Positions 3,877-5,803 of a stretch of 34,811 nucleotides of DNA are shown piece by piece. Position 1 is the stretch's first letter. Every line of letters begins with the position of its first letter. Source of the stretch: Saprospiraceae bacterium (GTDB lineage Bacteria; Bacteroidota; Bacteroidia; Chitinophagales; Saprospiraceae); NCBI GenBank assembly GCA_030728245.1, contig JANQZX010000040.1, forward strand, positions 1-34,811, in the 5' to 3' direction. Both the position numbers and the translations under genes were made by a program. A model generated the notes under the pieces. It saw nothing but the letters and a program-made list of their open reading frames with translations, was not told the origin of the DNA and ran no database searches.

Positions 3877-4767
3877 CTATGGAACTTCATTTCCCATCGC
3901 TGCCTCATATAATTGAAACCATTCCTGAAGTTCTAAATCAATAGAACATGCTTTTACCGCTGAAATGATGCGCTCTGTTTTGACTGTTCCAATAACGGGA
4001 ATCAATTGAGCAGGATGTTTTAACAACCAGGCTAAGGATAAAACATCGGCTCCTACCTGATATTTAGCCCCAAGAAGTTGAAATTGCTTATTTAAAGCAA
4101 CTTTCCCATGTTCAAAAATACTACCACCACCTAAAGGACTCCAAATCATTGGTTTTATTTTCCTTTCATATAAAAAATCAATGCTACCATCGATTAATGG
4201 TTGAAGTTGATTGAAATTTAATTCTATTTGATTGGTTATTAAAGGTATATCTAAACGAGATTGTAATAATTGAAATTGAGCGGGTGTGAAATTTGAAACC
4301 CCGATATGTTTTACTTTTCCCGACAATACCAACGAGGAGAGGGTTTGAGCGACTACATCAGCATTTAAAAGGGGACTAGGCCTATGCAGCAATAATAGAT
4401 CTATATAATCCGTATTTAGATTAGTAAGAGATTGTTCCACTGAAGAAGTAATATGATCCTTACTATAATCGTAATGTTTAACCTTTGTCAATGGTTTTTT
4501 CTGACTTAGTAATTGGATTCCACACTTGGTTATAATTTTAATCTGATGTCTTTTGGAAGGATTCTCTTTCAAAAGCCTTCCAAAAAATGCTTCATTAGCA
4601 TAATCATTATATATGTCCGCATGATCAAAGGAATCAATGCCTAAAGAAAGGCAGCTATCAAATAATTTTGAAATTTCTTTTTCCGATTGGGTTTTTTCGT
4701 CCCATCTCCAAACGCCATATACTAGCTGGGAAAGAGAAAATGTAGGTAAAAGTTCTATTTGTTTCAT
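3877..4767 (-). CDS. Aldo/keto reductase (YdhF-like)
   Basis: An NAD(P)H-dependent oxidoreductase with a TIM-barrel fold, probably reducing aldehydes or ketones in the cytoplasm. Starting at ATG 4767 gives MKQIELLP and 296 residues. The catalytic tetrad is complete: Asp51 (in DHADIY), Tyr56, Lys81 (in ITKCG) and His128 (in LLLHRPS). Overall layout resembles E. coli YdhF. The frame stays open upstream to 4848, but that extension would run through the transcription terminator of the neighbouring gene (4813-4850), so the later start is preferred. It sits between that terminator and the DUF547 gene (74 nt gap), so it probably has its own promoter. Substrate is unknown. Confidence 0.9.
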   Translation of the reverse strand: MKQIELLPTFSLSQLVYGVWRWDEKTQSEKEISKLFDSCLSLGIDSFDHADIYNDYANEAFFGRLLKENPSKRHQIKIITKCGIQLLSQKKPLTKVKHYDYSKDHITSSVEQSLTNLNTDYIDLLLLHRPSPLLNADVVAQTLSSLVLSGKVKHIGVSNFTPAQFQLLQSRLDIPLITNQIELNFNQLQPLIDGSIDFLYERKIKPMIWSPLGGGSIFEHGKVALNKQFQLLGAKYQVGADVLSLAWLLKHPAQLIPVIGTVKTERIISAVKACSIDLELQEWFQLYEAAMGNEVP

Positions 4768-4812
4768 TACGCTAATATACTCATTTTGTATATTATTAAT
4801 TATCTGGAAATA

Positions 4813-4850
4813 AAATGCCTTACACCAAATCATTTCAGTGTAAGGCATTT
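4813..4850 (-). terminator. Rho-independent terminator after the secreted-paralogue pair
   Basis: A perfect 13-bp inverted repeat (4813-4825 with 4838-4850, arm AAATGCCTTACAC) around a 12-nt loop, beginning 17 nt after the stop of the 4868-5314 gene. Read on the minus strand, the stem is followed by TTTTATTT. The flank on the other side is also A-rich, so it could work in both directions. Confidence 0.85.
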
Positions 4851-4867
4851 CTATTAAAAAAGACTCA

Positions 4868-5314
4868 TTAAAATATGATATAACCTAAGGTTACTGAAGC
4901 GCCTGCTGTCGAGGCACCTGCATCCATTTCCATTTTAAACAATTTTCCAGATCTTCCACCAGAAAAACTTAAACCTCCTAATGGTGCTCCCGATGTATAA
5001 ATGGTAGTGCCTGTAGCTGAGTCGACAATCTTCCAAACGGGAGTTCCAACAGATGAAACAATGCTAAAACAACTTATTGTTTTTCCAGCTGGAACAAAAA
5101 TTTCATTTTTCAAAGGATCATAAGTTCTAAATGGGGCAACATTACATATAGAACGATTAAAGTAATCTCCCGGAATGGTATTGCATTTTTTCTTTCCAAC
5201 AGGGGGAGTTTCAACCATTCTGGTGTCAGGCCTGCAAGCTTGGGCTAGCGTTGAAGTGGTGTTAGCAAGTTGAATGAAAAGAACAGCTAAAACGAAATAA
5301 AAAAGATTTTTCAT
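4868..5314 (-). CDS. Small secreted four-cysteine protein, paralogue 1
   Basis: A 148-residue protein with an N-terminal signal peptide (MKNLFYFVLAVLF... ending LAQ at 25). I do not recognise a named family. It is clearly homologous to the next upstream gene: both have cysteines at 27, 44, 57 and about 81/82, a Y/F-DP motif, then CF-I-V, WKI-D-ATG and a C-terminal TLG strand. The four cysteines could form two disulphides in a small beta-rich domain. It lies 24 nt downstream of its paralogue and is followed by a strong terminator, so the two form a short operon. The mature protein probably stays in the periplasm or is released; there is no lipobox or sorting domain. Function unknown. Confidence 0.7.
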   Translation of the reverse strand: MKNLFYFVLAVLFIQLANTTSTLAQACRPDTRMVETPPVGKKKCNTIPGDYFNRSICNVAPFRTYDPLKNEIFVPAGKTISCFSIVSSVGTPVWKIVDSATGTTIYTSGAPLGGLSFSGGRSGKLFKMEMDAGASTAGASVTLGYIIF

Positions 5315-5338
5315 GATGTTTTTATTTATGATGATTTA

Positions 5339-5803
5339 TTAGGGTTGGTAATCTACAAATCCCAGAGTAATCCAGGAGCTTTTGATAGAAGTGGTCCTGT
5401 TTAGCACGATCTTATAGACTTTATCCTTGATAGGTGCCGTTAATTTTAAAGTGCCCAATCGAGGTGCGGTGGTAGGCATTACCGGGTCAAAGACCACTGC
5501 ACCGGTAGCTTCATCTATGATTTTCCAATCTGGCTTTCCACTATATCCCACTATAGTGAAACAAGCTGCTTCTCTTCCTTTTGGGAGAGAAATGGAATGC
5601 GTTGAAGGGTCAAAAGTAGTTGATGACTGCTCACAAACGGTGCGCTGAAGGTAATTTCCCGTTTTTCCACTGCATGATCTAGTTCCGTAAGGCAAAAGTT
5701 CTGCGGAACGCAATGCGGCATCACATTTTTGAGCGGTCATATTCGTAAATACGAATAAGGACAATCCAAGAGACAATAGATTTAAAAAAAGATTCTTTTT
5801 CAT
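5339..5803 (-). CDS. Small secreted four-cysteine protein, paralogue 2
   Basis: A 154-residue exported protein: a lysine-started hydrophobic leader (MKKNLFLNLL... to TAQ25), then a compact domain with cysteines at 27, 44, 57 and 81. It aligns over its whole length with the downstream neighbour (148 aa), for example GNYLQRTVC against GDYFNRSIC and DWKIIDEATG against VWKIVDSATG, indicating a tandem duplication that has diverged to well under half identity. It is the first gene of the pair and so the promoter should lie in the 98 nt separating it from the divergent methyltransferase gene. No recognised domain; role unknown. Confidence 0.7.
   Translation of the reverse strand: MKKNLFLNLLSLGLSLFVFTNMTAQKCDAALRSAELLPYGTRSCSGKTGNYLQRTVCEQSSTTFDPSTHSISLPKGREAACFTIVGYSGKPDWKIIDEATGAVVFDPVMPTTAPRLGTLKLTAPIKDKVYKIVLNRTTSIKSSWITLGFVDYQP

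Follow-up and report, generated by a model that had tools for sequence, protein, structure and literature searches.

A 34,811-nucleotide stretch of the genome of a Saprospiraceae bacterium (hereafter the window; its draft genome, G000, comprises 3.92 Mb in 157 contigs) contains two adjacent genes whose products an initial annotation, made from the DNA itself, could not name. It described them as a duplicated, fast-diverging family of small exported domains with four cysteines, which raises the questions of what kind of proteins these are, how they have diverged, and what they might do for the cell.

A pair of paralogous genes and their products

Both genes lie on the minus strand at the coordinates originally given. 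The first gene of the pair, P2 (5339-5803), encodes a protein of 154 residues with cysteines at positions 27, 44, 57 and 81, and the second, P1 (4868-5314), lies downstream of it and encodes 148 residues with cysteines at 27, 44, 57 and 82, confirming their near-identical placement. Neither protein has a cysteine elsewhere, and in the mature numbering used below the four fall at positions 3, 20, 33 and 57 (P2) or 58 (P1). P1 and P2 are paralogues whose homology goes beyond chance, as the annotation had supposed: they are 32% identical (BLASTP E 1e-24), and their mature parts alone align with a score of 193, compared with a maximum of 56 among 1000 shuffles. A third copy of the family was not found in G000 at E<=0.01. 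All four cysteines are kept in each of the 10 full-length copies that we collected, while two partial copies retain whichever cysteines fall in their readable parts. Of the motifs proposed as common to the pair, WKI together with the D and TG after it is unchanged in every one of the 12 aligned copies, whereas the A of the "ATG" and the C-terminal "TLG" vary; the P1 copies of five other genomes have PGTG or PSTG in place of the former and TIA in place of the latter.

By inspection, both proteins begin with a hydrophobic signal sequence, in keeping with the earlier view that they are exported, and in both this sequence ends in A24-Q25, a pair of residues present in 10 of 10 full-length copies. 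Signal peptidase I of Bacteroidetes typically exposes a glutamine, a tendency known as the Q-rule that is described in PMC5837995. Because the A24-Q25 pair has the feature that this rule expects, cleavage after A24 is the more likely, although the site itself was placed by inspection. A signal peptide is thus likely, as annotated, with Q25 probably the first mature residue rather than the last residue removed. The inferred signal peptides correspond to codons 1-24 (5803-5732 in P2 and 5314-5243 in P1), and the mature parts, from Q25, to 5731-5342 and 5242-4871, respectively. We saw no lipobox, the residues before C27 being AQK or AQA, so the proteins lack this feature of substrates of signal peptidase II. 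Nor did a Pfam search at E<=10 match a C-terminal sorting domain of the type IX secretion system (T9SS), and in both predicted structures nothing follows the last strand of the single domain. As each protein has a signal sequence without a lipobox and without a match to a T9SS tail, the default location would be the periplasm.

The 24-bp gap between the genes (5315-5338, minus strand) contains no stem-loop, which is consistent with P2 and P1 being carried on one transcript. Downstream of P1, a stem-loop of the intrinsic-terminator type is found at 4812-4851 (minus strand; -23 kcal/mol, z -6.1), and its position is conserved in all five genomes that could be compared. That this is a real terminator is supported by folding of the same place in the four other genomes (z -4.3 to -5.6), given that in three of the four the stem sequence is clearly different; it also differs between the allele types of P1 described below. 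The "strong terminator" of the annotation is borne out as far as the stem is concerned, but not in its U-tract: the full stem is followed by few U, and the stem-loop at 4812-4851 was absent from the output of a simple terminator scan. On the other side of the pair, the intergenic region upstream of P2 (5804-5901, minus strand) is common to P2 and a divergent methyltransferase gene. The roughly 45 nt adjoining P2 are nearly invariant in five genomes, and we identified no promoter upstream of P2, the scan returning 3 hits where shuffled sequences averaged 8.0. The region between P2 and the methyltransferase gene occurs in two sequence types, one in the window, G048 and G213, and the other in G258 and G148.

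Distribution and genomic setting of the family

The annotation recognised no name for these proteins, and neither did the libraries that we searched: none of 10 members matches Pfam at E<=10, and there is no significant match in NCBIfam, PHROGs, PADLOC or the sequences of the PDB. No enzyme family of Pfam or NCBIfam matches P1 or P2. The NCBIfam model of the PG1828 lipoprotein was considered (E 0.018-0.09 for two P1 copies) and set aside, as it covers only residues 1-39, which are mainly signal peptide. We use "unnamed" with respect to these family libraries and to literature searches of a more general kind.

To follow the spread of the family, as the annotation had proposed, we used a profile of 10 copies, which found members in all seven genomes of the genus to which the window belongs. 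In five of these both genes can be read, and all five keep the pair at one locus. In the other two the assembly interrupts the locus: in G290 a run of N spans the start of P1 and the place where P2 is expected, and in G298 the contig ends within P1. Four of the closely related genomes are metagenome-assembled. Outside the genus, no convincing member was detected in genomes sampled from the family (298), order (396), class (395) and phylum (395), sets that overlap and include genus members; the first family search covered 150 genomes with one protein as query. Outside matches at E<=0.01 numbered 2 in the 150 and 2 in the 298 family genomes, 1 in the order, 1 in the class and 2 in the phylum, the best having an E-value of 4.9e-4 (among the 150 family genomes). 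A few such matches are expected because the E-values were calculated per genome.

Five of the outside matches were inspected (L034, L035 and L036 were left out), and four of them we take to be chance. The match in L010 is to the C-terminal part of a 520-residue protein that is presumably CotH-like, that in L011 is to an open reading frame overlapping a longer one in another frame, that in G107 contains a stop codon, and that in G922 exists in raw DNA only. The fifth, L033, is a protein of 599 residues, the first 119 of which match P1 at 25% identity (E 0.003, searched against a small database), and it is a possible distant relative. The divergent methyltransferase provides another view of the same locus. 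At E<=1e-60 it is related to proteins in 79 of the 120 family genomes searched, and 30 of these loci were fetched; at the 28 belonging to other genera, no relative of P1 or P2 lies within about 1.5 kb (blastp E<=1e-3; best profile E 0.049). Viral contigs, phages and plasmids likewise contained no relative. The family therefore is apparently restricted to the genus and unnamed in the libraries searched, with the proviso that its profile is shallow (10-12 sequences, Neff 1.8) and could miss very distant relatives.

The neighbours, a methyltransferase and an aldo-keto reductase by Pfam and a transporter that we take to be of the MFS type, give no functional hint. A neighbour in G148 is presumably moaB-like. 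In all six other genomes of the genus, a 319-residue LLM-class monooxygenase is encoded between the aldo-keto reductase and P1 (L026:2819-3778, and at the same position in L027-L031). Its nearest NCBIfam model, alkanesulfonate monooxygenase, scores below cut-off, and the corresponding place in the window, between 4767 and 4868, has no tblastn match to it.

Selection and probable allele replacement at P1

In the 10 pairwise comparisons of the five genomes, P2 has a dN/dS of 0.11-0.16 and P1 one of 0.08-0.30, against 0.04-0.16 in the four flanking genes (one aldo-keto reductase pair was not computable). P1 and P2 are under purifying selection, somewhat weaker than that on their neighbours. P2 is 89-96% identical among the five genomes, and P1 is 63-68% identical between two groups of genomes. 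The mature part of P1 exists in two types, one in the window and G048, the other in G258, G213 and G148, as well as in the readable parts of G290 and G298. Between the types, dS of P1 is 0.95-1.57, as against 0.17-0.41 for P2 across these six pairs, and it is this excess that points to replacement by a diverged allele, rather than fast evolution of the protein, as the source of the large differences in P1. The description "fast-diverging" was therefore mostly wrong, since P1 combines low dN/dS with divergence that goes together with high dS.

We located the limits of the exchanged segment with a maximum-chi-square scan of eight genome pairs (1000 permutations each). The scan puts sharp breakpoints near the border between the signal peptide and the mature part of P1, at 5212-5234. 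Between the window and G258 the break falls at 5232, just past the codon of Cys27, with 12 differences in 113 positions before it and 152 in 442 after it (0 of 1000 permutations as extreme); the window and G148 break at 5234 (0/1000) and G048 and G258 at 5232 (1/1000). The comparison of G213 with G258 breaks at 5212 in the opposite sense, the signal-peptide side being diverged (42/133) and the mature part alike (27/428; 0/1000), and G213 with G148 agrees with it (5212, 0/1000). A downstream breakpoint between the window and G048 was placed at 4816, in the 3' arm of the terminator (9/529 versus 12/27; 0/1000). For two pairs, window-G213 and G258-G148, equally extreme values came from 157 and 381 of 1000 permutations, respectively, and neither break is significant. 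Together, the breakpoints suggest that the mature domain of P1 has been exchanged almost as a unit.

P1 is not alone in this respect. Of the four flanking genes compared, three are each represented in one genome by a deeply diverged allele. The aldo-keto reductase of the window (3877-4767, minus strand) is 74.7-75.8% identical to that of the six other genomes of the genus, with dS of 2.3-2.6 in the three computable pairs as against 0.10-0.31 among the other four genomes, and the DUF547 gene of G148 (dS 0.97-1.22) and the transporter of G258 (dS 0.82-0.97) are outliers of the same kind. With the DUF547, moaB-like and transporter genes also standing out, the region looks like a recombination mosaic. 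Locally, the DUF547 and moaB-like genes of G148 (L030, 1-1251) are 80% identical to their counterparts, and the transporter of G258 (L028, 7124-8347) is 88-89% identical.

Predicted fold and possible roles

Structure prediction with AlphaFold2 gave an eight-stranded model of the mature part of P1 (12 sequences; pLDDT 82.8, pTM 0.78) and a model of P2 with a similar strand order (10 sequences; pLDDT 78.4, pTM 0.72). Both proteins probably fold as a jelly-roll-type β-sandwich, GOLD- or CUB-like in outline, with no assignable family. Foldseek found nothing in the PDB at E<=1e-3 for either model. The first-ranked entry for both was the GOLD domain of p24gamma2, 5gu5 (P1: E 3.9e-3, probability 1.00, TM 0.43/0.47; P2: E 0.015, probability 0.93), followed for P1 by the collagen-binding domain 3jqw at ranks 2-3 and two further GOLD entries, 7rrm and 5azw, at ranks 4 and 5, and for P2 by the agarase CBM6 domains 2cdp and 2cdo at ranks 2-3. 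In a second structural comparison, Kremen entries led for P1 (Z 6.8, rmsd 3.2, 95 aligned), while the P2 list was headed by a double-stranded β-helix protein, its maximum at Z 6.9, together with nucleoplasmin-type folds; no match reached Z 8, below which a score may mean merely a common arrangement. A viral structure library likewise gave P2 nothing at E<=1e-3; its matches included uncharacterised phage proteins with probabilities of up to 1.00, among them A0A6J5N5T7 (E 5.3e-3) and A0A8K1XVX5 (E listed as 1.0e-3, probability 0.99). As no match reaches E<=1e-3 or Z 8, the fold class is a generic one that reveals no function. Nor does GOLD stand out within it: for P2, phage proteins attain those high probabilities and the second comparison is led by other folds. 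The PPC domain (PF04151) was also tried and rejected: no member matches it in Pfam, and hhalign of the family alignment A3 with 20 of 29 listed PPC stretches gave a probability of 0.2% and a score of 10.9, within the 5.6-13.4 of 30 column-shuffled controls.

The closest folds differ from P1 and P2 in several respects. The GOLD domains of the p24/TMED proteins may share the eight-stranded β-sandwich predicted for P1, but no member shares a sequence profile with them (0 of 10 in Pfam at E<=10; 10-14% identity), and P1 and P2, judged by length and inspection, are without the transmembrane and coiled-coil parts. The disulphide of TMED9, C49-C121, joins cysteines 72 residues apart according to PMC11414720, whereas the aligned copies of P1 and P2 have no cysteine after position 82 and a widest spacing of 54-55, and so have no counterpart of the GOLD disulphide. 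The CUB domains of Kremen and neuropilin are jelly-roll sandwiches, a fold that P1 and P2 may share. The part of Kremen matched by P1 is, we assume, its CUB domain. CUB domains contain four cysteines, although those of P1 and P2 presumably lie elsewhere along the strands than in the CUB pattern, there is no Pfam match, and the Z-score of the P1 comparison lies below the range that distinguishes relatives.

Pairing of the cysteines as C27-C44 and C57-C81, the arrangement raised by the annotation, may be too simple a picture. The first ten residues of the mature P1 model, including mature Cys3 (C27), form its lowest-confidence block (mean pLDDT 47), and block 21-30 of the P2 model has a mean pLDDT of 60. 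Profiles of DsbA, DsbB and VKOR matched in none of the seven genus genomes, against 8, 6 and 3 of 14 control genomes, respectively. The position of C27 in a low-confidence tail and the lack of detected DsbA, DsbB or VKOR weaken the simple disulphide picture, although disulphides could form without these enzymes. The genus has exported proteins with conserved sets of cysteines, yet no DsbA, DsbB or VKOR profile match.

Tentatively, and with rather less than even confidence, we favour the view that P1 and P2 are co-expressed, non-enzymatic exported binding proteins of the periplasm or cell surface, each a jelly-roll-type β-sandwich. A two-gene transcription unit would yield two Sec-exported, soluble, small basic proteins of one lineage-specific family, each of which, after signal-peptidase cleavage, would fold as a single sandwich nearest to the GOLD/CUB type in outline. 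Through its loops or its edge, each sandwich may hold a ligand or a protein partner; in GOLD domains, cargo is bound by the sandwich edge, as described in PMC11414720. Cysteine links would make the domain more rigid and tether its N-terminal tail, and the paralogues, having diverged, may bind different things or form a mixed complex.

Several other roles have to be weighed against this one. P1 could be an antigen-like or toxin-like protein, on the surface or secreted, with a mature domain that is swapped as a cassette because phage, grazers or rivals select for variants. In its favour are the breakpoints that two kinds of comparison place near the border between signal peptide and mature part, and the one in the terminator. 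The window and G258 share 100% identity over 5317-5257, where P1 starts, but 54-77% when the mature part is taken in 60-bp windows. We nevertheless consider this unlikely: replacement is common among the flanking genes, only two mature allele types occur among seven genomes, dN/dS remains at 0.08-0.30, and the window and G213 show no significant break. Inhibition of an incoming enzyme such as lysozyme, in the manner of PliG, would suit small basic exported β-sandwiches of a Gram-negative bacterium, and PliG entries are among the Foldseek matches of both models: 4dzg for each (probability 0.82; E 0.045 for P2 and 0.069 for P1), and others (4dy3, 4dy5, 4dxz) at probability 0.54-0.69 for P2. With E-values of 0.045-0.14, a TM-score of about 0.3-0.4 and no demonstrated sequence relation, a periplasmic inhibitor is improbable. 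There is a slim chance of the four cysteines making up a metal site or a redox centre instead of two disulphides: they are invariant in a genus in which DsbA, DsbB and VKOR went undetected, but they are spread across the tail and strands and contain no CxxC motif, and exported four-cysteine domains usually carry disulphides.

A more far-reaching alternative is that the proteins are subunits of a disulphide-linked polymer, a flexible N-terminal tail with mature Cys3 entering neighbouring subunits so that P1 and P2 co-assemble into a covalent surface fibre, by analogy with Ena1A and Ena1B of Bacillus. As described in PMC8619143, these are 38% identical paralogues that work together, with an N-terminal connector whose Cys10 and Cys11 bond to other subunits, and Ena self-assembly in vitro without a specific enzyme would fit a genus in which Dsb enzymes were not detected. 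The plan is the same in P1 and P2: two paralogues, a predicted jelly roll, a cysteine-bearing N-terminal tail, which in P1 includes the low-confidence Cys3 block, and further cysteines in the sandwich. Ena structures were also found by Foldseek (P2: 9i0y, E 0.038; P1: 8pdz, E 0.082; 9i0y, E 0.11; 7a02, E 0.16). Yet their match probability of 0.20-0.38 is no better than that of many jelly rolls, the tail of P1 and P2 has one cysteine, at mature position 3, and no adjacent pair, none of 10 members has a Pfam match (the Pfam family of Ena being, we believe, DUF3992), and Ena comes from Bacillus spores, in a phylum other than the Bacteroidota. We regard a fibre of this kind as improbable too, and give the least credence of all to its fullest form, in which P1 and P2, both jelly rolls, would assemble by themselves through disulphide links into a fibre or coat around cells of this Bacteroidota genus. 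It would resemble the Ena1A/Ena1B fibres without sharing their sequence, and strains would exchange the mature domain of one of the two proteins. If the fibre reading held, Gram-negative bacteria would gain a covalent surface fibre of a new type.

The best reading of P1 and P2 is thus that they form a small lineage-specific exported β-sandwich family, ordinary in kind and new as a family. The pair adds an unnamed exported protein family that is seemingly confined to one Saprospiraceae-type genus, and its history indicates that a misleading signal of fast divergence can arise by allele replacement with a breakpoint near the border between signal peptide and mature protein.
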